DNA of 64,000 nucleotides, from positions 3,994,330-4,058,329 of the forward strand of contig OU744736.1 in assembly GCA_916613615.1 (NCBI GenBank). Direction: 5' to 3'. Below the pieces are notes generated by a model. That model saw nothing but the letters and a program-made list of their open reading frames with translations, searched no databases and was not told the DNA's origin. Positions within the stretch are counted from its first letter, which is position 1. Each line of letters begins with the position of its first letter. The position numbers and the translations under genes were made by a program. Source of the DNA: Steromphala cineraria (taxonomy: Eukaryota > Mollusca > Gastropoda > Trochida > Trochidae). Shown here in pieces: positions 36,501 to 63,300 of the stretch.

Positions 36501-39500
36501 TCTGTTCTTTCCCATCCTTTCACGCAATATCAATGTTATTATAACTAGATGGCGGTATATAAGATAGATAAGACGTGGTCCGTGGGATAATCAATAATAA
36601 AGGATGTTTGTCCTCGTGATATGCCCGTTGGAAAATCCCGCGGCAAACACGCTTTGTTATTAATGATACACGGGGCCAATGTCTTATTCATAAGTTGGAC
36701 CTTAAGCAGGTTGATATTATACAGTGACTTTATTCGTACAAAAGATTTCCCTATAGTGTTATATCTGAGGAGATGCGTTAATCCAATATAAACAAATTAT
36801 TCCAGATATGTAAATAATTGTTAAATTAATATTAGTACTTACATGGAGTTTTTTTTTTAAATTGAACAACATTCACTGCATGAAAAGAAGTTCTTTACAA
36901 GATATTTACAAAGGATTAAATATCTTGTAAAGTACTTATTTACAAGATATTTACAAAGATTAAAGTACTTATTTACAAAAATAATCAAGGTAATAAATAT
37001 CTATTAAAGATGATATTTACAAGATATTTATTATTTTGTAAATGTTTGTAAAGGTTTGTAAAGGTTTGTAAAGTTTTGTAAATATCATCTTTAATAGATA
37101 TTTATTACCTTGATTATTTTTGACTTTGAAAAGTGATAATTGGCAAAATGTTGACTTTGAAAAGAAATAATTTGAAAAATGATGACTTTGAAAAGTCACA
37201 ATTGGTGAAAAGTTGACTTTGAAAAGTAACAATTGGTGAAAAGTTGACTTTGAAAAGTAATAATTTGAAAAATGTTGACTTTGAAAAGTAACAATTGGTG
37301 AAAAGTTGACTTCGAAAAGTAATAATTTGATAAAATGTTGACTTTGAAAAGAAATAATTTGGTGAATGATGACTTTGTAAATAAATGATTTGTGAAATGT
37401 AGACTTTGAAAGAAATGATTTGATGAAAGGATGTCTTTTGAAAGAAATAATTTGATGAAATGTTGATTTTGAAAAGAATTAAGGTGAAATATTGACTTTG
37501 AAAGGTATTAATTTGAAGAAATGTTGGTTTTTTTAAATTAATGATTTGATGAAGTGTTTACTTTCAAAAGTAGTAATTTGGTGAAATGTTGACTTTGAAA
37601 ACTGATATGTTTGAAGAAGTGTTGACTTTGAAAAGAAATAATTGGTGAAATGTTGACTTTCAAAAGAAATAATTTGATGAAATGTTGATTTTATAAATTT
37701 ATTAGTTGATGAAATGTTGAGTTTGAAGAGAAAAAAATTGTGGAATGGTGACTTTGAAATAAATATTTTTTTTGAAATGTTGACTTTCAAAATAAATAAT
37801 GGTGAAATGTTTACTTTCAAAAGTAATGATTTGGTGAAATGTTGACTTTGAAAACTGATATGTTTGAAGAAGTGTTGACTTTGAAAAGTAATAATTGGTG
37901 AAATGTTGACTTTCAAAAGAAATAATTTGATGAAATGTTGATTTTAAAAAGTTAATAGTTGATGAAATATTCAGTTTGAAGAGAAAAAATAATGAAATGG
38001 TGACTTTGAAATAAATATTTTTTTTGAAATGTTGACTTTCAAAAGAAATAATGGTGAAATGTTTACTTTGATATGTTATAATTTGATGAAATGTTGACTT
38101 GGAAAATTAATAATTTGATGGAATGTTGATTTTGAAAAGAAATAATAGTGAAATGTTTACTTTGATAAGTAATAGTTTGGTGAAATGTTGACTTTGAAAT
38201 ATATAATTTGATGAAATGTTGACTTTAAAGGGGCAGTAGCACGTTTTTAGGGGGAATATATGGTGATGTCACGAAAATTAAAATTAGTGGTTCCAATTGA
38301 ACAACAATGTATTTAAACTATATGAAGTAGTAATAATTCAAATGTATAAGGTAAAGTTTAGCCATGCGATGACATTTTCTTACACAAAATGAATTAAAGG
38401 TGTTCACACAAAAATGGCCGCCAATGGATTTTATATGAATCTTCATACTTTGTCCTCTGACTATGGATGACTGGCTTTTGTAATGAGATTTTTGGCACTG
38501 TCAATATAATACATTTAGCAATAACTCACAATTATCAGTGAAATATCTTAAATATGAAATTATTAAAAAAAAGTGCTACTGCCCCTTTAAAAAGAAATTA
38601 CATTAATCTCAAAGACTATACCTGAATAAACAAACATTCATAAAGCAACTACCCGACAAATAAACTTGGCAAGTTTTCAATAAATGTTTATCTTGGAGCA
38701 TAAAATAGAAATCATCAATCTATCATCTGCTACCTACTCTGACTCCAAAACCCTCCTCGTTAAGATTAACGACATTCAATTAACAATAAGCTCAGATGAC
38801 TAAACTGAATATACGAACACTTAACAAGCATCTACCCGACAATTAAACTTGGCGAGTTTTCAATAAATGTTTATCTTGGAGCATAGAGAAGAAATCATCA
38901 ATCCATCGTCTGCTACCTGCTCTGACTCCAAAACCCTCTTCGTTAAGATTAACGACATTCAATTAACAATAATCTCAGATGACTATACCTGAATATACAA
39001 ACAATCAACAAGCAACTACCCGACAATTAAGCTTGGCGAGTTTTCAATAAATGTTTATCTTGGAGCATAAAATAGAAATCATCAATCCATCGTCTGCTAC
39101 CTGCTCTGACTCCAATACCCTCCTCGTTAAGTTAAACTACATCCAATTAACATAAATCTCAGATGACTAAACTGAATATACAAACACTTAACAAGCAACT
39201 ACCCGACAATTAAACTGGCGAGTTTTCAATAAATGTTTAATTGGAGCATAAAATAGAAATCATCAATCCATCGTCTGCTACCTGCTCTGACTCCAATACC
39301 CTCATCGTTAAGTTAAACTACATCCAATTAACATTAATCTCAAAGACTATACCTGAAAATACAAACATTTAAAAAGCAACTACCCGACAAATAAACTTGG
39401 CAAGTTTTCAATAAATGTTTATCTTGGAGCATAAAATAGAAATCATCAATCTATCATCTGCTACCTGCTCTGACTCCAATACCCTCCTCGTTAAGTTAAA

Positions 39501-42500
39501 CTACATCCAATTAACATAAATCTCAGATGACTAAACTGAATATACGAACACTTAACAAGCATCTACCCGACAATTAAACTTGGCGAGTTTTAAATAAATG
39601 TTTATCTTGGAGCATAGAGAAGAAATCATCAATCCATCGTCTGCTACCTGCTCTGACTCCAATACCCTCCTCGTTAAGATTAACGACATTCAATTAACAA
39701 TAATCTCAGATGACTATACCTGAATATACAAACAATCAACAAGCAACTACCCGACAATTAAGCTTGGCGAGTTTTCAATAAATGTTTAATTGGAGCATAA
39801 AATAGAAATCATCAATCCATCGTCTGCTACCTGCTCTGACTCCAATACCCTCCTCGTTAAGTTAAACTACATCCAATTAACATAAATCTCAGATGACTAA
39901 ACTGAATATACAAACACTTAACAAGCAACTACCCGACAATTAAACTGGCGAGTTTTCAATAAATGTTTAATTGGAGCATAAAATAGAAACCATCAATCTA
40001 TCTTCTGCTACCTGCTCTGACTCCAATACCCTCATCGTTAAGTTAAACTACATCCAATTAACATTAATCTCAAAGACTATATCTGAATATACAAACATTT
40101 AAAAAGCAACTACCCGACAAATAAACTTGGCAAGTTTTCATTAAATGTTTATCTTGGAGCATAAAATAGAAATCATCAATCTATCATCTGCTACCTGCTC
40201 TGACTCCAATACCCTCCTCGTTAAGATTAACGACATTCAATTAACAATAATCTCAGATGACTATACCTGAATATACAAACAATCAACAAGCAACTACCCG
40301 ACAATTAAGCTTGGCGAGTTTTCAATAAATGTTTAATTGGAGCATAAAATAGAAATCATCAATCCATCGTCTGCTACCTGCTCTGACTCCAATACCCTCC
40401 TCGTTAAGATTAACGACATTCAATTAACAATAATCTCAGATGACTATACCTGAATATACAAACAATCAACAAGCAACTACCCGACAATTAAGCTTGGCGA
40501 GTTTTCAATAAATGTTTATCTTGGAGCATAGAGAAGAAATCATCAATCCATCGTCTGCTACCTGCTCTGACTCCAATACCCTCATCGTTAAGTTAAACTA
40601 CATCCAATTAACATTAATCTCAAAGACTATACCTGAATATACAAACATTTAAAAAGCAGCTTCCCGACAATTAAACTTGGCGAGGTTTCAATAAAAGTTT
40701 AATTGGAGCATAAAATAGAAATCATCAATCTATCATCTGCTACCTGCTCTGACTCCAATACCCTCCTCGTTAAGATTAACGACATTCAATTAACAATAAT
40801 CTCAGATGACTATACCTGAATATACAAACAATCAACAAGCAACTACCCGACAATTAAGCTTGGCGAGTTTTCAATAAATGTTTATCTTGGAGCATAGAGA
40901 AGAAATCATCAATCCATCGTCTGCTACCTGCTCTGACTCCAATACCCTCCTCGTTAAGTTAAAAAACATCCAATTAACATTAATCTCAAAGACTATACCT
41001 GAATATACAAACATTTAAAAAGCAGCTTCCCGACAATTAAACTTGGCGAGTTTTCAATTAAAGTTTAATTGGAGCATAAAATAGAAATCATCAATCTATC
41101 ATCTGCTACCTTCTCTGACTCCAATACCCTCTTCGTTAAGTTTAACTAAATCCAATTAACATAAATCTCAGATGACTAACATGAATATACAAACACTTAA
41201 CAAGCATCTACCCGACAATTAAACTTGGCGAGTTTTCAATAAATGTTTATCTTGGAGCATTGAGTAGAAGTTAACACTCATACAGAATGACAATATGAAA
41301 TTCCGACTTTCATTTTTTTTTAATTCTTAAAATGTTCTGAAATTGATCAAAGTTTATTTTCAATTTATTCTTATATCAAATTATTATTGAATTATTTGCT
41401 ATTTTGGGAGATGATAACTTTCATGAAATATTTAGTTTGAAGTTTAGTTTGATGTTGTTTAAAAGTTAACTTTGATAAATATGAAAAGTATGTTGTCTCT
41501 TTTTAATGTTTTTAGAATATATTTAAAGATATTCGAATTCAGTTAACATTCCCAATGAAAAATAATCCTTCATTGAGTATATTATTGTAAGTGTACAGTT
41601 AAACAATACGCTATACTGATTAGTGAATGAATGGTTTATAACCATGAAGTTCACACAAAAAATGACATAGAAAAAAAACAACAAATAAACATGTTTGATT
41701 TTGGGAGCATGCGTAGACAGGTTTTGACACTCTTTCAAAATATCCACTGCAGTTGTTTATGTTCTTATGATATCAGTGATATAAACGTATCTAAAGATGG
41801 AAGTAATGAATATTATACATTGCTAAAAGATGGACAAACCAATAAATATCTAATCAGGCTCTAAAAATGAAATCACTATCATAATAGATTGACCTTGAAA
41901 TAACACTGTCTCAAGATGCACGCCACTGATTGAAGCATAGCAATCGTAGAACAAACACGTGCATATGCTTTCATCGGACAAAAGTCTTCATGTAGCCACA
42001 CCCCTGTTCAATACCCATTGAAACACCGTCTATTCCATGCCCACAGTTTGCTTTTTTTACTTAATATTTGCGTTTTTGCACAATATCCTCTTTGCATCTG
42101 TTATTCAGTCATGTGAAGGTGGAATATTGTTTTTGCATTCTGAATTTATTTTTCAAAGTAGAGATTTAAGTACGTAAAATGTATCATAAAGGTTCCCTTT
42201 TAAGTCGAGTATGTAATAATGTGACATTATACATAAACGGTTTAATAAGATGTTTGTGGGTTCAATAACATTTCAATAGGTCAATTAGAGCAAAATTTTG
42301 TTTTCATCTTTTGTTGAATGTCTCACACCATCTCGGATCTGACATTACTAATACAAAATACATATTTTACATCATATGCAGAATTCATACAGGGACAAAA
42401 GGATATAGATATAACTACAATAAGTCAATCTGTTTAAGCTGTAAAGTTACAGGACTTGCTCACCAGAAATATAGAACACGCCCATCACGTGTAAACAGAT

Positions 42501-45500
42501 TTAGGATATATTTACAAGCATTCGTATATAACGAGATATTTTTCAAAATTAGCATGTCAACCACATCAACTTTATTTCAAAGTAACCATTTCATCAAAAG
42601 TATCATCTCTCAATATAGCCAATAATTATGATGCATCTACTTTGGAAATCACTTGTGAACAATATAACAACTTCAGTGTCAACAACTTCCTAATTTCAAA
42701 TATATTAGAAAGTCAGAACTCATATTTTCATTTTGTATGAGTATTGATTTTTACTCTAAACCCCAAGATATACATTTAGTGAAAACTCGCCAAGCTTAAT
42801 TGTCGTGTACTTGCTTGTTAAGTGTTTGTATATTCAGGTATAGTCATGTGAGCTTTATGTTAATTGAATGTCGTTTAACTTAGCGAAGAGGGTATTGGAG
42901 TCAGAGCAGGTAGCAGACGATAGATTGATAATTGTTACTCTATAATCCAAGATATACATTTAGTGAAAACTCGCCAAGCTTAATTGTCGGGTAGTTGCTT
43001 GTTGATTGTTTGTATATTCAGGTATAGTCATCTGAGATTATTGTTATTTGAATGTCGTTTAACTTAACGAGGAGGGTATCGGAGTAAGAGCATGTAGCAG
43101 ATGATAGATTGATGCAAATAGCATTGATTGCCCTTGAACAGAACGAAGGGGCCTAAAATAGTATATGGTAACATTTGAATTGGTAGATTTTACACAATAA
43201 TAAATATGTTTATTATATGATCAGCAATGAAATACTGGGTTTTATCAGTGAAATAAACTGTCTATCAGGCACCAGTGACGATATATTATATTTTCACTGT
43301 GACCAGTGACGATATATTATATCGTCACTGGTCAGGTGCCGGACCTGCGCCACTCGTGAAATATCAACTTTACCCATGACACTCGATGAAATAAACCTGG
43401 TATTTGGAAAACAACATTAAGTATCCTCTATCTATTAGGGTCAAAATGTTTTTGACGCTACATATTTACAAATAAAATAATCCAAAGTAAACTTTCTTTC
43501 AGAAACATTGCAAATAAAAAGTCTCATTGAGAATATTTTTCTCAAAAATATGCAGTCATGAAATGAAAATTACTCAATACGTTTGCCCATGAAGCTGAAC
43601 TTTAAAAAATACATCATCAAAATGTTCACAAAGTAGTTATCACAACAATTGTAATACAGACAAACTGAAAGACAATGATATCTATTCAACTTGCACTCGC
43701 TGGTTACATAATAAAAATAGATAATAAAAATAGATTAAACGTTCACAAATAAAAAAAATTTCTGAACTAGCATGTCAACAACATCAAACTATACTTCAAA
43801 GTAAACACTTCATCAAAATTATAAACCCTCAAAATAGCCCTTTTTCATACGGGCTATACTTTGAAAATAACCTTTGAACAATATGACAGCTTCAGAGCCA
43901 ATGATGTACACCAAATTCAATTATATTTAAAAGTCAGAATTTCAAATTTTCACTTTGTCTGAGCGTTAACTTCTCCAAGATAAACATTGATTAAAACTCT
44001 CCAAGCTTGATTGTCAAGTAGTTACATTAAATTGTTTGTATATTCATGTATTATCATCTTATATATTGATTGAATGTCGTTAAACTTAACAAGACAGGTA
44101 TTGGAGTCAGAGCAGGTAGCAGACTATAGATTGATGCTAAGAGCATTGATATCCCTTTGACGGGACAAAGTGGCCTCAACATTATATTGTTGAATTTGAA
44201 TTGGTAAATTTTACACATGAAGCAGTATGTCTTTCATAATCAAAATATCAGTGACACCATGATGTACATGGTAACATGATATAGTGTAATATACTATCAA
44301 TGTGAATATGTCACCCAGACAAAGACAAGTACTACAGTATATCTTGCTGTTCACTAATTTTAAACAACACAGAATTAATGCCCTTACTATGATTAACAAT
44401 AACATAAACAATAAGTTAATATTCAACTGAACCTAATTGGTTTCAAAGTCAACATTTCAATAGAATCATTATTTACGAAATTAGGATTTATCTCCTCATT
44501 TTTTTGTGTGTGTGGCAAATAAAGGATTTTTGTACTATACATTCGATGAGCCTTTAATGGGTAAAGCTATTTGATTCTCATTATTTAGTTTATTGCACTA
44601 ACAATAACATAACAGATGCAGTGACACACTGTGTTTATAAGGTAGTAAAGTGGTATGCATGCATGAAGACTTAACGAGCCTTTGGCTGAATCCTTGACAT
44701 GTAGAATCTTGGCAATGTTTGATTTGTCATAGCTTCTTTTTTCATTGTCAGTGAGGTCATGGGTTGCGCTTTTTTTGCAAATATGTTATAAATATATTAT
44801 TTAAAAGTGTAAAGCTACATATAAAAACCTTTTACATTTAGGATAACTGATTGGAACATAAAATCTTGAAATTCTATTTCTTATGATTATATCTAAACAA
44901 TCAACAATTACGGTTGATTAATTAATTAACAAATATGTTGTATTAAGTAGATGATTTGATTAAATGAAATCATCAATTCATAGATTCAACCTGTTTCTCA
45001 AAATCATTAGATAAATCATGTTAACTATTTAATACTTGGTTTTTCCAACAATAGGTCTACATCAGGTAGAGAATGCACCAAATGACGAAAAACCTTTCAT
45101 TCTTTCATTATTGTCTACTCTTATGCCTGGGTGAGGATCCGGTGGGGTATCAGGCGACGTATCAACTTTACCATCTTAATTCATTAGTTACTACTTAGTT
45201 ACATGTAGTTAGTACTTAAAATAACAATGTACATTCTCCATATGTATCTACGCTGCAATCACCGTCCACCTGTATCACTTTTTGTATCACTTTATGTAAC
45301 TGCCGATAAGTTGTGTAACTTAAGGTTATATTAATAAAGAATTGAATTGAATTGAATTGAAATTGACAATTTCTAATACCTACTATATATTTAACGTTTA
45401 AACACATTTAGACTATAACAAGTTTTAAAGATCTATTGCAGTATAAGGTGTTTTATGTATCCGTCAAGAAACTAATGATGGACACCTCGCCGACAGGAAA

Positions 45501-48500
45501 TTAAAAACTGCAACAACCGCTAACCTCGATCACTTTTCGATTTACTTTCAAAGATATTTCAACTAAATAAGAACTGGGTGTGCTTTTTGTCAATTTGTCC
45601 AATAAACACCTTCAATTAGCTTTTTATTAAGACTGCGTAATTAACGGCTATAAAAAACCTACCTGAGATAGGGGCCATAAAACTCGCGCGGGTGTGACGT
45701 AATAAACAGACTATATAGAGTAGCGCATCATTAATTGAACTGAAATACCGCCTTAAATAATTGTTTATTTACAAGTGATGTTGATATCTTTATTACTTCA
45801 AACGCTTAATAGTGTTACATCGTCAAATGACTAATCCAACTGAGTGTTTATAATTTTCTGAAAATCGTTAATGAATGGGTTTATTTGGTGATCTCGTTAA
45901 GATAGATGTATAGAGCTCGTTGTAATCATTCTGAATATATGACGTCTCAAAAATGGCGTGTGACCAGTCATGCATTCACGGGTCTGTCGCGAGACAGATC
46001 TAGCTGCCCATCAAGTCGGCATTCAAAAACGGCTTTAGTTACTAAACTGAACATAATTGAGTATCAACCTTTGACACACTATAAAATATTTAATCAGACA
46101 TACTTATATTCAAAAGAAAATAGCAACATATGTTTGTGGTTATATGATGTTTAACATTTAAACACATTTACACTCAAACAAGTTTTAAAGATCTATTGCA
46201 GTGTAAGGTGTTTATGTAAACGTCAATAAACTATTGATGGACACCTCACCGACAGGAAATTAAAAACTGCAATGAGATATTTTTAAAATTATTTTATTAT
46301 TGCGTCACGCAAATGTTGACATGTCGTATACATAAAAATTAGCACCATATACATAAAACAACATTTGCCCGGCATACAAGATGGTCGATCCCAATGAACA
46401 GTGCTAGGGTAGGCTTTTACGCTGAGAGTTGATCCAGGCGTTGAGCCATGAAGCATATCAAGCATGAGCTAACGGCATTGCCATTCAATACACAATCAAC
46501 ATCTTAATTAATGAGATATTCCAACAGGTGTATTCGTTAAGCTACCTACAAGTGAGGGGAATTTAACTTCTAGTAAGCTGTTTGGATTCCTCAAATCAGT
46601 GATTAGTTTTTCTTTTTCTTATGAAAATGAGAAAATATTTCACAAACTAAAGACAATAGTAAACATTTCCAGTATCTCATGATTAATTTTTCATCAAAAA
46701 TCTTCATTCAACAACACAATGGATTTTATAAGTCTATGTTTTACAAAAGGTCAACATTTGAAATTATCAAATTTTCCTTAAAAGTTAATATTCCATCTGA
46801 AAAATTAACACCCATTAAATGCGTAATGAATACATCGAACTGATTATGTAACAGTATTGTCACTCAATAGACAATCAACACCTTGACTTATGAGTTATTT
46901 AGCAAGTGTATTCGTTAAGCTACAACCTAATGAGTGGAAATAATTTCCAACAAGCTGTTTTCATTTTTCAACACTGTATTTATTATTCATATTAGTTAAA
47001 ATAAGGAAATTATCAAATTATATCTTTTCTAAGTCATCATTTCACAAATTTCACAAAATATTTCTTTTTTTAAGTCAAAATGTCATCAAATTATTACTTT
47101 TCAAAGTAATTATTTCACCAAACTCATATGTTTTCAAAGTCTTCATATCATTCATTATTACTTTCCAAAGTCAACATTTAACAAAACGTATAAGTTCCCA
47201 AAGTCATCATTTCACTAATTCTTCCTCTTCAAGTCATAATTTTACCAAAATTATTCCTCTTCAAAGTCATCATTTAACCAAATTACTTCTTTTAAAAGTC
47301 AACATCTTATAAAATGTTCACGTTTCAAAGTAAACATCTAATAAAATAATCACTTTTCAAAGTCACTATTTCATCAAATTATTTCCTTTCAAAGTCATCA
47401 TTTCACCAATTATTTCTTTTCAAATTCAACATTTCATCAAATTATTATTTTTCAAAGCATTTTTTCACTATTTCACCAACCTATTAGTTTCCAATGTCAT
47501 CATTTCACTAATTATTTCTCTTCAAATTTATCATTTCATCAAATGATTCCTCTTCAAGTCATAATTTCACCAAATTATTCCTATTCAGAGTCATCATTTA
47601 AACAAATTATCTCTTTTCAAAGCCAACATTTCGAAGAATTATATTTCTCTTCAAACTCAACAAATTCATCTTGTATTTTTCAAAGTCAACATTTCATGAA
47701 ATCATCACTTTTGAAAGTCAACATCCCATAAAATTTGTACTTTTCAAAGTTACCATTTGATGAAATTGTTGATATTAAAAGTAAAAATTTCATCAAATTA
47801 TTTCTTTTTAAAGTCAACATTTTACCAATTATCACTTTTCAAAGTCAACACTTCACCAAACATATTAGTTTTCAAAGTCATCATTTCACTAATTGTTTCT
47901 CTTCAAAGTCATCATTTCACCAAATTATTATTTTTGAAAGTAAACATTTCATCAAATCATTAATTTCCAAAGCCAACATTTCTTCAAATTAATACCTTTC
48001 AAAGTCAATATTTCAACTTAATTTATTTTCAAAATCAACATTTCATCAAATTATTTCTTTCAAAGATATCATTTCACAAATTATTTCTTTCCAAAGTCAT
48101 CCTTTCACAAATTATTTCTATCCAAAGTCAACATTTCATCAAATATTTCTTTCAAAGTCAACATTTACCATTTTTTTTACTTTCAAAGTCTACATTACAG
48201 ATTAAAGATGATATTTACAAATATTTACAAAAATTTACAAATATTTACAAATATTTACAAAAATTTACAAAGGATTAAAGATGATATTTACAAAGAAATA
48301 AATATCTTGTAAAGATGATATTTACAAAAAAATAAATATCTTGTAAAGGTAATAAATATCTTCATTTCACCCAGTGATTATTATCTTGGGATTTAGTCAC
48401 ATATCATCTAATTTCATAAAATATCCCTCTGTTTATCGTTTTTGGAAAGAACTATATATTGATATCATTTACTAAATGTGTTGACATTTGATGAACCATA

Positions 48501-52545: not shown

Positions 52546-52844
52546 TATTATATATATAAATATATATAAATACATGTATATATAAACATATATACAAAAT
52601 ATAAAATCGTCCGTCCTTCTAAGCTATGCTTGTGAAGATCCTTTAACGTATAGCATATACAATCACCATATACATTTGCAAAACGTTTACTGCAAAACAA
52701 AACTTCTTTTCAATAAAAGATAACATTTCATATCTTGCCAGCTCTGACGACCTGTAGTTGTCTAGAAGCAGAGGATCTTTGTCCATCCATTCAGAGTAAG
52801 ATTGATGGATGTGTGAGCGACTTCATCAGTGATGTGCCTGCACT

Positions 52845-53745
52845 GGTTGCTCTTTTCAACAACACCTCGTCCGTCCTTAACTTGGCATCAACAGTTACCA
52901 CACAGCTTAATCTTATATGCGAGTGAGTGGTCTAGTTGCTCTCTTCAACAACACCTCGTCCGTCCTTAATTTGGCATCAACAGTTACCACACAGCTTAAT
53001 CTTATATGCCAGTGAGTGGTCTAGTTGCTCTCTTCAACAACACCTCGTCCGTCCTTAACTTGGCATCAACAGTTACCACACAGCTTAGTCTTATATGCGA
53101 GTGAGTGGTCTAGTTGCTCTCTTCAACAACACCTCGCCGTCTTTAACTTGGCATCAACAGTTACCACACAGCTTAGTCTTATATGCGAGTGAGTGGTCTA
53201 GTTGCTCTCTTCAACAACACATCGTCCGTCCTTAACTTGGCATCATCAGTTACCACACAGCTTAGTCTTATATGCGAGTGAGTGGTCTAGTTGCTCTCTT
53301 CAACAACACCTCGTCCGTCTTTAACTTGGCATCAACAGTTTCCACACAGCTTAGTCTTATATGCGAGTGATTAGTCTAGTTGCTCTCTTCAACAACACCT
53401 CGTCCGTCCTTAACTTGGCATCAACAGTTACCACACAGCTTAGTCTTATATGCGAGTGAGTTGTCTAGTTGCTCTCTTCAACAACATTGTCCGTCTTTAA
53501 CTTCGCATTAACAGTTTCCACACAGCTTAGTCTTATATGCGAGTGAGTGGTCTAGTTGCTCTCTTCAACAACACCTCGTCCGTCTTTAACTTGGTATCAA
53601 CAGTTACCACGCAGCTTAGTCTTATATGCAAGTGAGTGGTCTAGTTGCTCTCTTCAACAACACATCGTCCGTCTTTAACTTGGTATCAACAGTTACCACG
53701 CAGCTTAGTCTTATATGCGAGTGAGTGGTCTATTGCTAGTTGCTC
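52845..53745 (+). repeat. 89-bp minisatellite derived from the exon 2/intron 2 boundary
   Basis: GTTGCTCT starts at 52845, 52935, 53024, 53113, 53201, 53290, 53379, 53468, 53555, 53644 and 53739: ten units of 87-95 bp plus a stub. The first unit is the genuine end of exon 2 with its donor (GCGA|GTGAGT at 52923). The following units copy about 78 bp of coding sequence, the GTGAGT donor and a short intron piece (GGTCTA). Most units keep GTGAGT; one has GTGATT and one GTGAGTTG. Units are 94-99% alike by eye. Confidence 0.92.
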
Positions 53746-53759
53746 TCTTAAAAAGATGG

Positions 53760-54417
53760 ATATTGCTAACACTTTAATTTCTAGTTATGTAAATGTCATA
53801 TCTATATGCTTTTTATCAGTTAAATTCATGTAAAGATTAGATTATCTATTAAAAGTTGGAAATTGGAAACAAACCTTTAAATCTGAATCTAAGGATAATC
53901 TTAGGAAATAATAATCTACAAATTATAAATCTAAATCTGAATGTGAATCAGCAAGTCATTAAGAATGTTTATTTTCTAAAAACATCCAAACTCTTGGATA
54001 TAATTTAAATTGACAAAAAGTCAACATCACGGTGAATCAAAATGAATATTGAAAAGATTGCAATCTGACCTGAAATTAAATCCTAATTTTAATATTGATC
54101 TTTTAGCAAAGTAATTCGAGTTGAATTTTAATTCTCTTATGAAATAAACAGGATCTCAGCGAGTCTCGGAGTCAGTTTATGAATCAGAATATGGGATCAT
54201 AATACATATTTATCTTAACGCAAACATGAAAAAAAATTGAAGGTTGTGTTTCACATACGAACATGTCTCATTTGTTGCAAAGGTAAAGTTCTACAATCGT
54301 ATTTCCAAGTCTATCAGTCTAACATATAATTGCTGTCATTTTAGGTAAAATATTCTCATAACAAAACACCTGTTCATGCCACTTCTAATGACAAAATATG
54401 AATTTCCTTCTTTTCAG
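53760..54417 (+). other. Rest of intron 2 of the secreted-protein gene
   Basis: AT-rich with short AATCTAAATCTGAAT-type repetition (53860-53960). No gene. Confidence 0.45.
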
Positions 54418-54844
54418 TAACATGAGGAGCGTGGAACAATTCTATGGATGATTTTTCACTGCTTACCTTGCTTGCATGCCACAGGAGTGGGTCAAAACTC
54501 AACCATCAAAAGATGACGCAACTGCATCCGTCACTTACTTCTGTGAAATGCTCCCAGGTGGGTGCCAGGCTGAGTGTATATATCACAAGAGCCAGTAACT
54601 GTCGTGTCTATTAGTAATATAACAATTATCTAGATGTAATGATTCCAGATTAAGTATTGATACATTTCTGAGGATATTATCGTCAAATGTGTAACATTTA
54701 CTTTCATGTCATTGTTAAGACTATAAGTAGGCGAAGAAAATGTATTATTCATGGTGTCCCGACCCCTCAAAAGCTCAGATATCTCAGTCTACCACACCAT
54801 TTGAGTAGACATATATTTCGTTTATTTTAGCAACAGTGAATTAA

Positions 54845-55193
54845 AGGGGAAGCAGCACGTCACAAGTTTTTATATTTTCAATTCTTCATTGATAAGTGAA
54901 CGTCAATGCTTAATGTATCATTTTGATAGTGTCAAACATCTCATTACACAAACCAATCAGACATAGCCAGAAAACAAATTATGACAGTCCATTGGCGGTC
55001 ATTTTTATGTGAACACCTGCACTTTTAATTCATTCATTATGTGTAAGAAAAGGGAATCGCATGGCTGAACCACACAATATATTTTTGATTTAGTACTGCT
55101 TCATTTACTTTGGATATATTGTATTTCAATTGGAATTTGTATTTGTATTTCCATTTTCCTGACATCACCTTATATTCCCTCTAAATATCCCCT
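54845..55193 (-). mobile_element. TTAA MITE, copy E
   Basis: TTAA at 54841-54844 and 55194-55197; ends AGGGGAAGCAGCACG and ATATCCCCT. About 349 bp, in intron 3 of the secreted-protein gene, in the orientation of copies A and B. Confidence 0.82.
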
Positions 55194-55780
55194 TTAAAGA
55201 CGTAATAAAGATGTTATTTTCTTCTTTATAGAAACAAATGCACTTAATATTTTGATGGTTTGTAGTATAAGTTAGCACTATTGTCACTGCAGAGCTCGAC
55301 ATCTCCTGCCTGGTTGACAAGATCCTGGATGCTGGTATATGTATTGCGCTCTCTCACACCGGATCTCCTGACGTATCAACACCTGACGGCTATCTCAGCA
55401 ATACGTGCAGGTACGTACTGTTTAGTTAATTGTTGTCCTTTAGTTTAGTTAATTGCAGTACAGTTGTTGCATGTGGGGCTCTTTAGTTTTTAAAAAAAAA
55501 TGAAATGACCTCTTTGTGTGACCGATTTAATGGAAAAATTCGGTCAACTGACCTAATCTTTTTTAATTGACAAAATTCGGTCAAACTGACCTAATTTATG
55601 TCCTCTCATGGTATGATAAAAGGCCACTTTGTTCCATGAAAAAAATCATTCTCAGTCGAATCTTGAGAAGTGAGGAATCTCCTATGTTCTTGACATTATT
55701 GATTCTGTGGGCAGTTTACCTTGAAGACAGAAAATGGAGAATATGATGAGCAAGTATGGACCTCTTACTGAAACTGATAG

Positions 55781-56521
55781 ACAAATGGTAGAACTTCAGG
55801 AGTCTCGCTGTCATATCAGCTTGGTGGAGATGACATTGTGTTTGTGACAGCCACAAAGTGGAATGGAATGTTAAGTATACAATTCAGCAAGTATGATACT
55901 TTCCGTAATGGCAAGAGCTATCCTACCAGAGGAGGGATTATGTTGACTCTGAAACACTGGTTGGAACTGCCAGGAGTGTTCAAGTTCTTAGATGAGAATG
56001 GTAAGAGATATATTTATACACATGTTGGAACCAGTGTCTATGCCATCATAGAAGACCATGGTGTGGATCTCAGACACTGGGAGTTTAATGATAATATACT
56101 AGTACCTTCCTCAAAAGGTATTCTACTATCCCAGGATCAGTGGACACCATTGAGAGACGGTTGTGATGTGATGCCAGACTTTGTACCCGAACTCTTGGTC
56201 ATGTTACCCTCACCAAATGTTCATCTCAAACGAAATCATGGTGAAGAAGAAACTACATCTGAGGTAAAGAAAATGAAGAATGAAGAAAAGACCACATCTG
56301 ATGGAAGACCACAATATGAGGTTGCAACACCTTTTAATACATCAGATGAATTACCTCCAATGTACCTTGATTTGCTATCACCACCATTTGCTGATGATAC
56401 TGAGACTAAGGATTGTATTGACGATGATGACCTTAGTGTAAATGATGAACATTTTCACCAGAGTCAAATGGAGCATTTGCAATGTTCTAAATGTAACCCT
56501 GAAGATTGGATGAACTTGTGA
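55781..56521 (+). CDS. Protein with two PC4-like (p15) DNA-binding domains, element-encoded
   Basis: The open frame begins after TAG 55778-55780 and ends at TGA 56519-56521. The first domain (about 55811-55990) has GGDDIVFVTATKWNG, then LSIQFSKYDTF, SYPTRGGIMLTLKHWLEL. The second (about 56015-56160) has VDLRHWEFND and LVPSSKGILLSQDQWTPL. Each matches the PC4 pattern of a strand pair, a P-x-x-G-I-x-L turn and W-x-x-L helix. PC4 proteins bind single-stranded or melted DNA in transcription and replication. An acidic Ser/Thr-rich tail follows, ending CSKCNPEDW. No ATG opens this frame; an ATG at 55734 begins a good frame (MENMMSKYGP) that would need a frameshift near 55805-55820, so the 5' end may be broken. 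The family call is by eye. Confidence 0.6.
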   Translation, partial: TNGRTSGVSLSYQLGGDDIVFVTATKWNGMLSIQFSKYDTFRNGKSYPTRGGIMLTLKHWLELPGVFKFLDENGKRYIYTHVGTSVYAIIEDHGVDLRHWEFNDNILVPSSKGILLSQDQWTPLRDGCDVMPDFVPELLVMLPSPNVHLKRNHGEEETTSEVKKMKNEEKTTSDGRPQYEVATPFNTSDELPPMYLDLLSPPFADDTETKDCIDDDDLSVNDEHFHQSQMEHLQCSKCNPEDWMNL

Positions 56522-57007
56522 AGTGCATTATGCTCAGAGACTTTGGACTGTAAAGACGTGTTTTACAATCGCTCTTATAGCATGGATTCCTATGGATATG
56601 AGACTTTTGCTGATTGTAGTGGTTCATTACCAACTAGACCTGATTACACTTCCTTTGAGAAAAGACTGGAATCGTCTAAGGACTGGCCTCTTCAAATGAA
56701 GCAAACTCCAAGAGACTTGGCTCATGCTGGACTCTATTATCTGAATTGCGGGGGCTCGTGTATTTGTTTTAAGTGTGGTATGCGACTCAAAGAATGGAGT
56801 TCTACGTATGACCCCTGGGTGGAGCATGAGAAGTGGTCTCCTGACTGTGACTATCTCCGTATGGTTGGAGTGTCTACAGAAAGGTTTTCTAAAAAACTGG
56901 ATCTTGGGCTCCAACATCATTCAATTGAAGTCAAGGATAATATTAAACTGGTTGTACATATTTATATTGTACTGTCATTAACTATGCATTTCTTGAATAA
57001 ATTGTAG
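56522..57007 (+). CDS. BIR-domain (IAP-like) protein, element-encoded
   Basis: In the same frame as the PC4-like ORF and separated from it only by TGA 56519-56521. The first ATG is at 56582 (MDSYGYETF). The BIR domain (about 56675-56875) opens RLESSKDWP, continues LAHAGLYYLNCGG and has an intact zinc site CFKCG...EHEKWSPDCDYLR with spacing C-x2-C-x16-H-x6-C. BIR domains bind caspases or IAP-binding peptides and in IAP proteins hold back cell death. No RING or second BIR follows; the C-terminal tail is hydrophobic. It may be a captured host IAP fragment serving the element. Confidence 0.82.
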   Translation, partial: SALCSETLDCKDVFYNRSYSMDSYGYETFADCSGSLPTRPDYTSFEKRLESSKDWPLQMKQTPRDLAHAGLYYLNCGGSCICFKCGMRLKEWSSTYDPWVEHEKWSPDCDYLRMVGVSTERFSKKLDLGLQHHSIEVKDNIKLVVHIYIVLSLTMHFLNKL

Positions 57008-57078
57008 TTGAAATTTACAACTTGTGTTTGTGATATATAAATAGTGTGTTACCAAACTAATCTATTTAGTTTGTCATA

Positions 57079-58132
57079 ATGGCTCCTTGGGAAGACTATC
57101 TCAAGAGAATTTATTATGATCCATCTCATCCAGGAAGTTAGGCTGGAGCCAAGAAATTATACGAAACTGTGAAAGCTGAAGGTCAATTAAAGATTGGTCT
57201 TCATCACATCAGGAAAGGCTGAAAGGTCAGGGAACATACACTATGACTCATCAAGTGAGACGAAAGTTTCTAAGAAATACATATGTTGCTGAAGGTATAG
57301 ATAGTCACTGGCAAGCCGATTTGATGAATATGGTTTCATTAGCTAAATATAATGATGGTGTAAAATATGTATTGGTTATCATTGATTTATGTTCACGCTA
57401 TCTTTGGATCTATCCACTACAGTCACCAAAGGTCAGGAAGTACTGAAAGCCTTGACAACATTGTAGGAAACACAAGTGCGTCGCCCTGGTATATTTCAAT
57501 CTGATATGGGTTCAGAATTTAAGAATCAATGGGTCAAAACTTTTTTGAAAAATCACAAGGTAACACAGCTGTTCACACTCAGTGAGACGAAATCTCCTTA
57601 TGCTGAGAGAGTGATTAAAACTCTAAAAATGCGACTGTATCGATATATGCTGAACATGTTTACATATAGATGTATAGATATATTACAAAAAGTGGCAAAG
57701 AGTTATAACAATACAAAACATAGAATGTTGGGACACGCTCCTGCTCGTGTCAATAGACATAATGAAGGAGAAGTGAGGTTATCACATTATTTGATCAAAA
57801 CCAAGCAACAGAAACCAGCCAGGAAGAATGCAAAAAGAAAATTCACATTCAAAGTAGGAGATACAGTTCGAATAAGTCATTTGAATGGTAAATGTGATAG
57901 AGAATATCAGGAAAAATGGAGTGCTGAAATCTTTACCATTACCCGACGCTATTGGTCTCAAGACAATGATTTGTACAAACTGAAAGATTGGGGAGGTTAT
58001 CCTATTTAAGGTTCTTTTTATGCTGCTGAATTGCAATTCGCGACTGAACATCCAGACCAAGAATATAGGGTACAAGACATTATCAAAAGGCGAACACAAA
58101 ACAAACGGAAAGAAGTGTTGGTGAAATGGTGA
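57079..58132 (+). pseudogene. Polinton-type integrase with chromodomain, broken
   Basis: Opens MAPWEDYLKRIYYDPSHPGS at ATG 57079. The core has SHWQADLMNM (first Asp), FQSDMGSEFKN (second Asp) and KSPYAERVIKTLK (Glu), a retroviral-type D,D,E integrase fold of the F54H12.3-like group. The C-terminal part (58010-58130) reads FYAAELQ and EYRVQDIIKRR plus KEVLVKW, a chromodomain-like end. Breaks seen: TAG 57139-57141, a frameshift near 57220-57240, a frameshift near 57429, TAG 57464-57466, TAA 58007-58009, TGA 58130-58132. All three acidic residues remain, but no intact protein can be made. Confidence 0.82.
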
Positions 58133-58199
58133 ATTCTAATTAATGGACAGCATTATTGAGTAGTAGTCTTGGCTATTTACTTCCTAATCCTAAAATCAA

Positions 58200-58637
58200 A
58201 TCTCAAAAGTGATAATGGAAAATACATAATTTTAAGAAGTTGTGACAGTAAAGATAGATATCCTGACAATCAGTCCTAGTCATTTCGAGTTCATTTGAAT
58301 GAACTACTACATTTTGAACATTCTTGGATGATTGCTCAGTATTAACAGTGTCAGAAGAAGTTCAAAATTCAAAGAAATATATGTAAATTTACATTCTTCT
58401 ATCTGTGATTCAACTTATGTGGGTGAAAACCAAGAGCCTTTTCTCAGACGATTATGTTTAAACAATGGAAAATCTTTTTTTTTCACTATATATCAATATG
58501 TACCCATCAAAGTACGTGATCTTACAAGCATTGATATCATCATCACTGACGAAGAAGGTCAGCCAGCTACATTTTTAACTGGTACACCTTCATCTTTTTC
58601 CAGGCCTAAGTACTGTACCCAGAAAATTAACTCATGA
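58200..58637 (+). pseudogene. Polinton minor-capsid (penton-like) remnant
   Basis: The piece at about 58230-58330 (RYPDNQS, FRVHLNELLHFEHSW) and the open frame 58332-58637 (FKEIYVNLHSS, YQYVPIKVRDLTSIDIIITD, EEGQPATFLTG) fit the pattern I associate with Polinton/adintovirus minor capsid proteins: an opening jelly-roll strand with YPDN, then YVPV...FDTIEIDIRDDTGRPVPF near the end. At least one stop (near 58281) and one frameshift (near 58334) break it. Recognition is from memory of the family, without alignment. Confidence 0.55.
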
Positions 58638-58768
58638 CTGGTAGTGAATGAATTCAAGTTTGATGAAAGAGCTTCTCTAAAAATATGATCCATCTGAATA
58701 AAAAATAAAAATATAAAATAAATACACTCACTTAAGAGACAAATCGGATCGTTTTCAACATAAAAAAA

Positions 58769-58955
58769 ATAAATTCTAAATGAAGGGAGACAACTATTTC
58801 GTCCTTACTGACATGGTATCCCATTACACTAGTCAAAATTAAATTCTAAATTAAGGGAGACAACTCTGTCGTCCTTAGTGACATGGTATCCCATTACACT
58901 AGTCAAAATTAAATTCTGAATGAAGGGAGACAACTCTTTCGTCCTTAGTGACATG
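58769..58955 (+). repeat. Three-copy 70-bp tandem repeat
   Basis: GGGAGACAACT recurs at 58785, 58855 and 58925 with the shared following block GTCCTTAGTGACATGGTATC. Inside the 3' part of the Polinton-like element. Confidence 0.85.
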
Positions 58956-58959
58956 TAAG

Positions 58960-59454
58960 AGAAGATATTATCAAAAGTGTTAGAAATACTACCATATGTA
59001 TTCAATGTAAATAAATATTGTCATTCAAAATGTCCTTCCATGGCTTGTTAATTTATATTTTCTGAAGTTTACTATGCTATTTTTTTACTGTTTAATCTTG
59101 TGGACATTTTCACTATCAGATCAATCTCTTGAAAGCAGGTTTAGGGAAAAATCAATACACACAGAGGCTATTTTTATTGGTATTATTTGGTTAGGGTAAT
59201 TTTATTACCCTGAATATTTATTGTCCTGAAAAATCAATGTTTTCACCATTGAGCAAATTTAATGTTCAGTACTCTTGGTTGTAACAGGTGTCTTCTATTG
59301 ACCATCAACAGGCTTTTAAAACTGTGTGACCTGAGTGACACCTGCCTGTTAAAAGAAAATCAATAACAAAAGTGTTTATGCCTCAATCTTAGCAACAGAT
59401 ATGATGTCACCTAAAATTAGATCATGACATCATTTCCGCACCTGTGAAAAATAA
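58960..59454 (+). other. Non-coding 3' part of the Polinton-like element
   Basis: AT-rich, no frame with a recognisable domain before the right inverted end. Confidence 0.45.
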
Positions 59455-59607
59455 AATAGGCCAGTTGACCTATTTGTCCATTAAATCGGTCACACAAAGA
59501 GGTCATTTCATTTTTTTTAAACTAAAGAGGCGCCCATACAACATACAATCCAGTCATAAGTGCTAGCAGTAGGGCATGATATGTCCACCATGTATCCCAT
59601 CAGTTGA

Positions 59608-60228
59608 CATTCTCTCCCCACAGAGGCAGCTCAATCATACCCGAGTTAGCCTCTGTTCTATTACGCCAAGAATCCGGGGTTCCGGCAGATTGCCCTAGCA
59701 GCAAAAATTTGAAACTTAAGATATCTCCCTTCTTTGCAGCCAATGAAAACACCTTTTGGATATCCATGACTCGGAGAATACTAAACGGTCGTATAATGAC
59801 ATGGAATATATCATGCCTTTAAGTTTGTTTTTCATAAGCAGTGTGAGAGGGAAAATATTTAAAATATCAGATATGGATAGAGTTTTTCATTAGTTAGAAT
59901 TTTTTTATAATTGTGTAAATTATTATTTGTTTTATGATAGATTTTATTATACTAAGTAACCAAATAAAAAACAACGAGAAAGTAAAAAGCGATGTATTGT
60001 TAAATGGAGAGTTATCTCCCTTGGATGTTAAATTTCAAGATAGCTTTGCCGAAGTATATGGGAATGGCCGTGGTTTTGCGAATGACCACTTTTGAAACGG
60101 CGTTGCTGATTGCACAAATAACTTCGATTGCCTCCAATCAGATTTCTACCTTTCCATCCCCGGAGTATTAGTCTTAATAGAACAGAGGCTAACTCAGGTA
60201 TGACTGAGCTGCCTCTGTGTGGAGAGAA
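59608..60228. mobile_element. MITE-like element with about 57-bp inverted ends
   Basis: 59608-59664 (CATTCTCTCCCCACAGAGGC...GTTAGCCTCTGTTCTATTA) is matched in reverse by 60168-60228 with few differences. There is no coding sequence (the frame 59604-59822 is chance). It sits directly after the Polinton-like element, in the same intron. A reduced copy lies at 1455-1515. Confidence 0.75.
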
Positions 60229-60749
60229 TGATCAATTGACAGTCACGACTGCAATTGTTGATAATTCTAAAGGTTAATAACTTTTAGTTTTTTAAATATA
60301 TTTTGCTTTTGAGATAAATGTTATATATCTATACGGTTAAGATTAATGTTAAGCCTGAATTAATAGGAATAATGTTCTGTTATTTTAACTGCAAATATCA
60401 GTTTCATTACTGTCATAATTACCATAGAAACAATTCTAGTTATCCATCAGCTGACATTTTTTTCATTTTCACATTTCAAAAATATATTTTCTATTACCAG
60501 ATCCATCTCGGCTATGGAATCGTGCTACAAGACAACCATGGCATCCTGCCCAGGACAAACCGCTGAAGTGATGTCCGAATTTGTTCTTTACAGTAAACCT
60601 GTTGGTTGTAATGGCAATGCAACCAGACTCTCATGGGCTCTAGCATTTATCTCCCTTTGATTGTTGTTTAAACGTTTCATTTAAATGCAGTTTTGTTATT
60701 CCCTAACAAACCGAAAGTACAGATATTTTCTTCTGCGTTTGGCCGTTAA

Positions 60750-60955
60750 AGGGGCAGTAGCACGTTTTTAGGGGGAAGTTTGGTGATGACAGGTAAATAA
60801 AAATTAATGGTTCCAATTGAAAGTCAATGTATTTAAACTAAATTGAGCAGTAATAATTCAAATAAATAATGTAAAGTTTATAGCTGTGCGATTCCTTTTT
60901 CTTTCACAAAATGAATTAAAGGTGTTCACACAAAATGACCGTCAATGAAATCCGG
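60750..60955 (+). mobile_element. TTAA MITE, copy F (3' end lost)
   Basis: TTAA at 60746-60749 followed by AGGGGCAGTAGCACGTTTTT, nearly identical to copy C. Similarity stops near 60955 (AAAATGACCGTCAATG). It starts about 86 bp after the stop codon of the secreted-protein gene and could supply its 3' end; an AATAAA lies at about 60786. Confidence 0.75.
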
Positions 60956-60959
60956 TAAA

Positions 60960-61470
60960 ATTAGCCCAGAAAATAGCCCAACGCACCACAAATTGCAACA
61001 GAAATGGTTTTGATTGTTTTTAACATTTTAGATTATCCTTTATAACATATCAAAAGTTTAGGATGATTGGAGATGGGGAACATTCTGAAAATGTATGTCA
61101 AAGTTATAGGTAAAATATTAATTTTTGCTAAAAAAAAAAAAAAAAAAAAATTCTTAATTTGACTTTCAATTGAATCTTGATGTTTGACCACTTAAATGAA
61201 AGCTTAATTATTGTGGGAACTTTTTTTTATTTTAATATTTTTCAAGTTTTACATATATTCGGTTTGTTTGTACATATTCACAGTTGAGCGTGAATAAAGA
61301 ACATTATACATTTAAACAAAAAGGACATAAATACATAGGCTACAGTGACCTTCAGCGCTATACAGGTTATACTATTGGTGAAGGTACATGCACATTACAT
61401 ACATTGGCAATATGACGTGCTTGTAAGTGAACTGTGTGTAATACATAACATTTACAGTCGATTATCAAAA
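60960..61470. other. Unassigned sequence with an A-run
   Basis: Contains about 20 A at 61131-61150. The part from about 61200 is probably the 3' UTR of the minus-strand LINE that follows. Confidence 0.4.
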
Positions 61471-61473
61471 CAT

Positions 61474-62618
61474 CTAATTTCTCAATGTGGTACACGTATG
61501 TAGGGATGACCAGAATTTAACAAATGGATCATTCTCACTGGAAACTAAGTAAATGCAATTCGTTATGTCGTAGTATTGTTTGATTTGGCCAAGTATATAC
61601 AGAAAATTCGGAACATTCACTTTTTGACTGTTCTTGAATATAATGTCTTTTACAAGTAAAATGACAGCGCTAATAGGATTGTTATTTCTTCTTTTAATAC
61701 CGAGCATAATCTTTGACACTGTTAAATTTATATGAATTTGGGCGGTTTGTAAAAATTTGTCTAAACTTTTTGAAATTTTTACAACCGGGTCACAATACCA
61801 AAATAGGTGCTCTAAAGTTTCCAATTCTTTATTACAAAACCGACATAGCGGTGTTTCCGATACCTTTATTCTGAATAAGTACATGTAACAATATGTAGGT
61901 AAATATGATGGATAATCCTATACTGCAGCCATTTCAAGTCAGTACTACGAGTGCATTTGTGGGCTATCATATCAAATACTCTCCAAGCCTTTTCTGAGAG
62001 TTCAAAATCTAAAATTCTTGCTCATTTGCTATAACAGGGTAATTGCACATATTTCGAATCCATCAATTTCGTGTATATGTATTTACTGCTTATTTTTTCG
62101 CTATTATGAAATAAGTTAAAAGGATAAATTGGATTTTGAAAAACATTCTGTATGTTTTGTATATCTAACTTAGAGATATACGACATAACATACCTTTTTA
62201 TACCTTTATAACTTAAAAAATCTGTATGAATTTCAAATTTATTTTCGAATTCCTCAAAATTTATAAGTCTACCCTCATGGTGCATCAGATCATTGATAAA
62301 TATTACACCTTTGTTATACCATGATCTGTACATAATATACTTTCCATCTATGTTTATTCCATCATTATTCCACAAAGACTGACTTAGCAGTTCGCCTTCT
62401 GAAATGCTTGATGTTTTACACTTATTAATAAAAATTGAGTATGACATGAGAACATCCTTCCAAAATATATTTGTCATTTCTGGAATCAATTTATCTCGAA
62501 TAAAGGTGTTATCTGAAAGCCAAAGCTCATTCATATCATTTATTCTGTTTGCCAAAATAGTAGCCCATTTCTTGTCTCCACTTTGTAGTCTACTATTGTG
62601 GGAACTTCGCAACATCAT
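61474..62618 (-). pseudogene. LINE ORF2 C-terminal region, frameshifted
   Basis: Two minus-strand frames (62618-62022 and 61884-61474) belong to one protein; between them WRVFDMIAHKC, LKWLQYRIIHHIYL is readable in shifted frames. The end shows the cysteine motif PLCRFCNKE-x5-HLFWYC, the C-terminal zinc knuckle of L1-like ORF2 proteins downstream of the reverse transcriptase. There is no reverse transcriptase core: the copy is 5'-truncated at about 62620, where Tc1-like sequence begins. Confidence 0.78.
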
Positions 62619-62639: not shown

Positions 62640-63300
62640 ATGAGAGCAATGCTGTTAACGCATGGGTAAAACAGACTTGCATGGGCAAGAAATGTTCGAC
62701 ATTGCCAGAACCAAAACTGGCAGAGAGTGTTATTTTCCAACGAAAGTCGGTTCAAGATTTTCACTTAGCAGACGCGAGAAGGATGGTCTACCATCGCCGG
62801 GGTGAGAGGGAGGCACGCTTATCCCTTTCGGTGGAGGCAGCGTCATGGTCTGGGGTGGGATACGCGGCAACGCAACCACCAACCTCATTGTCATTGACGG
62901 CAATCTGACAGCACAGCGGTACATTGACAGGGTCCTTCAGCCAGAGGTCATCCCATTCTTACAACGCCATTCAAACACCCTTTTTCAACAGAACAATGCT
63001 CGTCCTCATGTAACCAGAGTGACTTTGCAGTCCCTCAACGTCAACAACGTCCAAGTTCTGGCTTGGGCTGTCAGATCGCCCGATATGAATTATGATTACA
63101 TCGATCGAAGGATCCGTCAACGTCATCACCAATCACACACACATCAACAACTTATTGCTGCATTGATGACCGAACGGAGGCAGATACCACCTGCTTTCAT
63201 CAAACGATTGACTTTTTCTGTGAGACGAAGAGTGCCAACGGCGGACATACCAGATACTGATCACATACAATATATCATTAAATTAATGATTATTCTATGA
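62640..63300 (+). pseudogene. Second Tc1-like transposase, inactivated
   Basis: WARNVRHCQNQNWQRVLF at about 62687-62740 is followed by stops and a frameshift, then 62845-63300 (MVWGGIRGN, DGNLTAQRYIDRVL, FQQNNARPHVTRV, VRSPDMNYDYIDRRI). Two catalytic Asp positions read Asn (FSNESRF; QQNNARPH), and the third motif is deleted around SPDMN. The N-terminal DNA-binding half is missing. It differs from the 28.4-kb element and shows no terminal repeats that I can pair. Confidence 0.82.

Follow-up and report, generated by a model that had tools for sequence, protein, structure and literature searches.

A probable decayed Polinton with neighbouring PC4-like and BIR genes in the genome of Steromphala cineraria

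We put at about 80% the probability that the locus described here is what remains, after decay and an internal deletion, of a Polinton (Maverick) whose lineage has the gene block PC4(x2)-BIR-integrase-penton, in which the tandem PC4-like gene and the BIR gene are two separate and recurrent accessory genes. The locus lies in a stretch of 64,000 nucleotides of S. cineraria, called here the window. As a dead element the copy is ordinary, but it points to an apparently undescribed Polinton gene set. The initial annotation of this DNA had proposed a Polinton-like element, which was borne out, as the locus is a Polinton derivative and both of its accessory genes recur together with Polinton genes.

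Results

The element in the window

The genes lie between two inverted arms (Table 1) with 107 of 137 columns identical (78%), and the ends of the element align with those of related copies, including L012. In that copy the element ends with 5'-AGTAGTATACC (AGTAGT) at 540 and 6283 and is flanked outside both ends by a 6-bp target-site duplication, ATCCGT; no target-site duplication was seen at the ends of the window copy or of L011. The window DNA is homologous to other copies over 55587-58586; beyond an interruption, homology returns over 59110-59492, and a portion of this second stretch corresponds to the far end of the element in L012. Because homology breaks off and resumes in this manner, the element is considered internally deleted, with a length of about 4.1 kb estimated from the inverted arms and the alignment to related copies. 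Full-length Polinton/Maverick elements measure 15-20 kb.

Table 1. Features of the shortened element, with window positions.
Feature	Position	Strand	Basis or remark
Left terminal inverted repeat	55460..55600, approximate ends	+	arms 55465-55597 vs 59414-59543; aligned with other copies' ends
Remnant of PC4 gene 5' end	55734..55799	+	other frame, MENMMSKYGPLTETDRQMVELQ (MENMM...QMVELQ); cf. PC4 start of L016, METVSPQLMERYGFVTQSDKQMAELQ
Tandem PC4-like gene, open frame	55781..56521	+	Pfam PC4; TGA 56519-56521 is the natural stop
First PC4-like domain	55826..55969, approximate	+	Pfam (two stretches); alignment; predicted fold of homologue L010
Second PC4-like domain, core	56060..56158	+	best Pfam stretch, residues 94-126
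BIR gene from its own ATG (MDSYGYE...)	56582..57007	+	start motif common to other copies
BIR domain, zinc ligands intact	56663..56857	+	Pfam; C-x2-C-x16-H-x6-C
BIR protein tail, displaced into other frame	56896..56994	+	matches L010 BIR residues 108-140, E 2e-4
Polinton integrase pseudogene, three frames	57079..58129	+	matches at 57079-57216, 57219-57431 and 57425-58129; 78-80% identity to L010 integrase pieces
Penton-like gene remnant (presumably F54H12.2-type), two frames	58220..58580	+	matches at 58220-58336 and 58365-58580; 31.9-42.5% to L009:1209-1634
Internal deletion site	58586..59110		homology to other copies ends at 58586 and resumes at 59110 with the L012 far end
Right terminal inverted repeat	59414..59548, approximate ends	-	paired with left arm; aligned with other copies' ends

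The PC4 frame, with 246 open codons, is the longest of positions 53001-61000; in 200 simulated sequences of equal length from a first-order Markov model the longest frame reached at most 179 codons, with a mean of 107. Pfam placed PC4 above its cut-off in this frame (55781-56518; 42.8 bits, cut-off 25; 3.7e-11, in two stretches) and found BIR in the frame behind the TGA (56522-57004; 64.5 bits, cut-off 22.9; 1.3e-17), so that both domain assignments of the initial annotation hold. Its description of the gene block was largely accurate as well. The BIR zinc site is perfect, but the gene as a whole is not quite intact, since its tail lies in another frame; likewise the PC4-like repeats are open, but the 5' end of their gene is displaced; and the neighbouring integrase and penton-like genes are broken, as had been stated. 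The window copy itself is dead, because these two genes, the PC4 5' end and the BIR tail are split over frames. The integrase pseudogene still gives an rve match of 1.4e-5, under the Pfam cut-off, and the penton-like DNA is 86-91% identical to that of L016, L017, L018, L022, L024 and L028.

An outer inverted repeat (54990-55185 and 60767-60947, 72%), first taken as possible element ends, was rejected because it also has matches in L016 (1271-1475), L019 and L026; the match in L016 lies about 2.4 kb outside that element's own end repeat. From these sequence matches, it is a dispersed repeat. Directly to the right of the element lies a MITE-like repeat (59608-60230) with 56-nt inverted arms (95%). 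The window also contains large tandem arrays (25716-27195, 37034-41269, 42536-43114, 46996-48329 and 52843-53752), and among the best 80 matches listed, portions of the 37-38 kb segment reappear in inverted orientation at 47-48 kb, as do portions of 38.6-41.5 kb at 42.5-43.1 kb without note of inversion. By eye, the stretches 62845-63300 and 61474-62618 show a transposase-like frame, perhaps of the Tc1/mariner type, plus reverse-transcriptase-like frames on the other strand.

Recurrence of the gene pair and element lineages

The pairing of PC4 and BIR is far beyond chance. The window PC4 frame has 96 matches genome-wide, which form 84 clusters; in 48 of these a BIR lies no more than 3 kb away, and all 48 share one strand with their BIR. 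The BIR stands on the 3' side in 42 clusters, in 41 of them starting within 300 nt of the 3' end of the PC4 match, and on the 5' side in the other 6. Thus, the pair occurs at dozens of places in the host genome, also with Polinton genes, and not only at this locus. Of the two outcomes that would have spoken against the initial annotation, a missing PC4 match and a pair confined to this locus, neither occurred. It is not obligatory, as 36 of the 84 clusters have no scored BIR nearby (150 of 243 BIR candidates were scored). Among these 36, an ATPase match was present within 6 kb in 12, which is a selected count since the 13 ATPase rows were picked for closeness to PC4, and 24 had neither neighbour.

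Divergent PC4 genes (30-34% identity, frames of about 164 aa) are found at G000 C1:97391428, C36:1098989, C32:6219920 and other places; they have an ATPase match on their strand at a distance of about 5.5 kb but no scored BIR, and look like another PC4-bearing lineage. At C36:56781055-56791497 and C41:6194947-6206434 of the same genome, pPolB and ATPase lie on one strand and PC4 and integrase on the opposite one, perhaps a further arrangement or nested elements.

We then consider 20 BIR-centred loci of 10 kb, chosen by hand and not at random among 131 BIR clusters. In 15 of them the BIR has a match to at least one hallmark gene nearby, be it integrase, penton, capsid, protease or ATPase. In eight loci (L010, L011, L012, L016, L017, L018, L022 and L028) the order is PC4-BIR, followed by integrase and penton where present and in some by ATPase; this is lineage A, beside which we place L024 with pieces of BIR, integrase and ATPase and without a PC4 match. 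Three loci have BIR and then PC4 (lineage B: L019, L020 and L026), eight have other element genes without a PC4 match, and one (L023) has the BIR alone. Lineage C carries integrase-penton-ORF127-capsid-protease-ATPase-BIR-ORF163-ORF216 (L009, L013 and L027; in L025 only BIR-ORF163-ORF216), with everything from integrase to BIR within one 10-kb stretch. Lineage D has integrase-capsid-protease-BIR (L015 and L021, and L014 in pieces). The sole partner found near the BIR is PC4 in L011, L019 and L020, and ORF163/216 in L025. In L016, a 606-aa frame (8059-9879) combines C2H2-like fingers and an extended Q-rich segment, both seen by eye, with a region that matches the A32-like ATPase of L009.

Several hallmarks of the family lie in the related elements. 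An rve integrase was found in L015 (1.9e-11), and L009 has a chromo domain in its integrase (9.7e-6), an A32-like packaging ATPase (Pox_A32, 4.4e-5) and an adenovirus-type cysteine protease (Peptidase_C5, 9.2e-6); the window copy had no match to the A32-like ATPase, the adenovirus-type protease or the capsid gene. The capsid-like protein of L009, a candidate double jelly-roll major capsid protein, had no Pfam capsid match, and its model (pLDDT 53) gave coat or capsid proteins as the best 50 Foldseek matches listed (E 1.9e-9 to 2.4e-7, TM at most 0.36). In seven lineage-C elements pPolB (PF03175) lies 8-11 kb 5' of the BIR and in the same orientation, and the ATPase immediately precedes the BIR. 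Among the 91 of 157 pPolB candidates scored, no match fell in the window and none was seen inside a lineage-A element.

These elements thus resemble Polintons/Mavericks and adintoviruses in their rve integrase (with chromo domain in L009), A32-like ATPase, C5 protease, capsid-like gene and upstream pPolB, and also in the inverted ends starting with AG and the 6-bp duplication of L012. They differ from the known members in carrying PC4 and/or BIR genes, and the window copy in being a deletion derivative. No report naming PC4 or BIR as Polinton or Maverick genes was found in a literature search that covered few subscription papers.

The PC4 protein

The window PC4 frame alone gave matches at noise level against solved structures (PC4 at E 0.57) and nothing at E ≤ 1e-3 among 5.8 billion proteins. 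With the intact homologue of L010 as query, the same protein set yielded 15 homologues; 7 of them are named, and every one of these belongs to Haliotis. A profile of ten PC4 homologues matched PC4 at 5e-9 among solved structures, a core stretch aligning with human PC4. Viral contigs held no relatives of the PC4 frame, the PC4 alignment or the capsid alignment; phage records gave two matches only, at E 0.5, and PHROGs nothing below 0.018.

The L010 model (mean pLDDT 72, with disordered ends) shows the beta4-alpha unit twice. Foldseek ranked human PC4 (TMt 0.79) and repeats I-II of PURA (about 0.6) first, with E near 0.001, and the PC4 homologue of phage T5 came at rank 27; only 3 matches reach E 0.001. 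The predicted fold is therefore like that of PC4/Sub1, PURA and the T5 homologue. Unlike these, the chain has two PC4 domains and a C...H...C..C tail, invariant over 10 aligned sequences, which from its pattern of residues may bind zinc; in the window gene an extra linker of roughly 60-80 residues precedes this tail. A further difference is the CARD domain, which stands at the N terminus of PC4 in some abalone copies and in one other homologue. Precomputed annotation gave it for 5 of the 15 homologues. When five homologues were rescanned, CARD exceeded the cut-off in P0001 and P0003, fell short of it in P0004 and P0005, and was absent in P0013. In the host genome no CARD-PC4 fusion was found, the nearest of 88 CARD matches being at least 15.7 kb from the 84 PC4 rows compared.

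Within a single chain, both PC4 folds would pack as a pseudo-dimer of the PC4/PURA type and bind single-stranded DNA. Most likely the protein would coat the displaced strand during protein-primed, strand-displacing replication, and it could possibly act at promoters too. Adenovirus DBP coats single strands during replication. The initial annotation had read the protein as a DNA-binding coactivator, suited to an element that must be transcribed. Membership of the PC4 family, by Pfam and by profile, and the names of the structure entries, in which human PC4 is a coactivator, favor that role. However, the same fold includes binders of single-stranded DNA and the T5 homologue, implicated by its entry title in recombination-dependent replication, and strand-displacement replication, as in adenovirus and phi29, needs a protein of this kind. 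Coactivation is thus one reading only and, although possible, somewhat doubtful; judging from the model, a role in replication would be at least as likely and fits at least as well.

The BIR protein

A short N-terminal stretch is common to the BIR proteins of lineages A to D, as is the motif W-P-x-Q-M-x-Q; across eight proteins (lineages A-D plus two others) this motif and D, G and D near the start are common to all. A 65-column tree mildly rejected a single origin of all Polinton BIRs (AU p 0.022). The L010 BIR had two matches at E ≤ 1e-10 in the protein set. At one groove position, which we assume from XIAP numbering, the window protein has Y where L010 and several other copies have D, so that the groove residues are partly kept. 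A RING E3 domain, a feature of many IAPs, was not found in the proteins of the window, L009, L015 or L016, in which the scan gave BIR only. Short single-BIR proteins occur in DNA viruses (baculovirus, malacoherpesvirus, nimavirus), and the proteins described here are like them by description.

A zinc-bearing BIR protein without a RING could bind caspases or IAP antagonists and so delay the death of the cell in which the element replicates. A single BIR without a RING would also suit a protein acting in virion assembly or, like survivin, in cell division, and not in apoptosis. This is unlikely, since NAIP (BIRC1), XIAP and the "apoptosis 1 inhibitor" entries are among the solved structures with the highest scores, with survivin (BIRC5) far lower, and since the fusion of CARD to PC4 in homologues from abalone hints at signalling in cell death. 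These fusions make the cell-death theme more likely but are no proof of it. The earlier proposal that the element keeps its host cell alive fits both the BIR and the CARD fusions, and would follow from this proposed activity.

Discussion

Polinton cargo and the expansion of mollusc IAP genes

The 150 scored BIR matches form 131 clusters, 115 with a single BIR and 16 with several. A match to integrase, ATPase or pPolB lies within 12 kb of 64 of the 115 single-BIR clusters and of 1 of the 16 multi-BIR clusters, as opposed to 0.6% for a random position. When PC4 is counted too, the figures become 78 of 115 and 1 of 16 (random 0.7%), and direct reading of L024, L025 and L026 adds three, giving 81 of 115. 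These counts rest on 150 of 243 BIR, 150 of 1096 integrase, 150 of 317 ATPase, 91 of 157 pPolB and 105 of 1352 lineage-D integrase candidates scored; the census at 12 kb used all scored ATPase, pPolB and both sets of integrase rows and 84 of the 96 PC4 rows, the other 12 being further pieces of the same places. The sole multi-BIR cluster near Polinton genes (G000 C2:65592195-65594209) has PC4, two BIR matches and integrase pieces in about 2 kb. Of the 34 single-BIR clusters left over, 16 have frames of at most 170 aa and 18 have longer ones; the shorter group may in part consist of remnants or of retrocopies without a link to Polintons.

In the hard clam study (Song et al. 2021, PMC7831173), 51 of 159 IAPs are intronless, which is ascribed to retroposition, DNA transposons are enriched around IAPs, and a G3-type IAP of hard clam and mussels combines BIR with a PC4 regarded as co-opted. 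Another study describes intronless IAPs of the eastern oyster without retroposition machinery (PMC8917759), and a hard clam table gives Maverick as 1.69 and 1.93% in two columns (PMC8905726). The genes described here resemble the bivalve intronless IAPs (PMC7831173, PMC8917759) in having a single BIR, an uninterrupted frame and scattered copies, and the G3 type (PMC7831173) in bringing BIR and PC4 together, a likeness by description. The differences are that the G3 type is described as an IAP type, whereas here we have two adjacent genes of a mobile element, and that the bivalve genes are explained by retroposition, whereas here more than half of the single-BIR clusters lie near Polinton genes. 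A statement that Polintons carry intronless or BIR+PC4 IAP genes was not found in the literature searched, which included few subscription papers.

Host IAP and PC4 genes might have been duplicated by retroposition and merely have landed beside Polintons, in line with the view given for intronless bivalve IAPs in the two studies (PMC7831173, PMC8917759). We regard this as very improbable for the genes described here, since the order, strand and spacing of PC4 and BIR with Polinton genes are repeated and since proximity to such genes is frequent in single-BIR clusters and rare in multi-BIR ones. Carriage by Polintons is a simpler account of intronless single-BIR and BIR+PC4 genes than retroposition or co-option.

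Two genes with different histories

The initial annotation had correctly placed the PC4 and BIR frames in register, with a single TGA (56519-56521) and the BIR ATG (56582) exactly 20 codons on, but the single PC4-PC4-BIR protein it drew from this, made by readthrough or recently split by the TGA, is ruled out for practical purposes: the PC4 stop is in the same position in 9 of 9 lineage-A copies read, the window included, the spacer has further stops in L010, L022 and L028, the BIR is in a different frame from PC4 in L017 and L018, and in L029, the nearest relative with 87% identity in PC4, the genes are likewise distinct ORFs with the PC4 stop at the same place. In the nine copies PC4 ends with CNP(N/S/E)D(Y/W/D)MN(W/L)-stop and the BIR starts about 60 nt past it with MDVCGYE, MDSYGYE or MDDCGYE. 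Most aligned homologous PC4 proteins from elsewhere also stop within a few residues of the tail motif (7 of 8; P0009 ends just before it). As the PC4 stop is conserved and the BIR has its own ATG, these are two separate genes.

Median pairwise dN/dS is 0.28 for BIR (55 pairs, 11 copies) and 0.21 for PC4 (32 usable of 36 pairs, 9 copies), medians that count related copies many times and whose low values could reflect selection in past active elements. Between the window copy and L029, the PC4 genes show dS 0.067 with a relaxed dN/dS of 0.68, and the BIR genes dS 0.588. The two genes therefore have different histories, and exchange of PC4 and BIR genes between elements is likely from this divergence.

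Implications

The data suggest that some "expanded" cell-death genes of the host genome travel with mobile elements. We lean slightly towards a broader view, with genomic counts that come from one host genome: that mollusc Polintons bear a module for cell death (BIR, joined in some lineages by CARD-tandem PC4) together with a PC4 protein binding single-stranded DNA, and that a large part of the mollusc intronless IAP expansion consists of Polinton cargo, the BIR+PC4 "co-option" among it, rather than of host genes spread by retroposition. If this is true, counts of apoptosis genes in molluscs lump genes of the host together with virus-like cargo, and the idea of IAP expansion as a host adaptation to stress needs a recount without the Polinton copies. 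It would also provide a proposed single-stranded DNA-binding protein for the protein-primed replication of Polintons. Moreover, purifying selection would seem to have preserved an anti-death gene in a family of virus-like elements.
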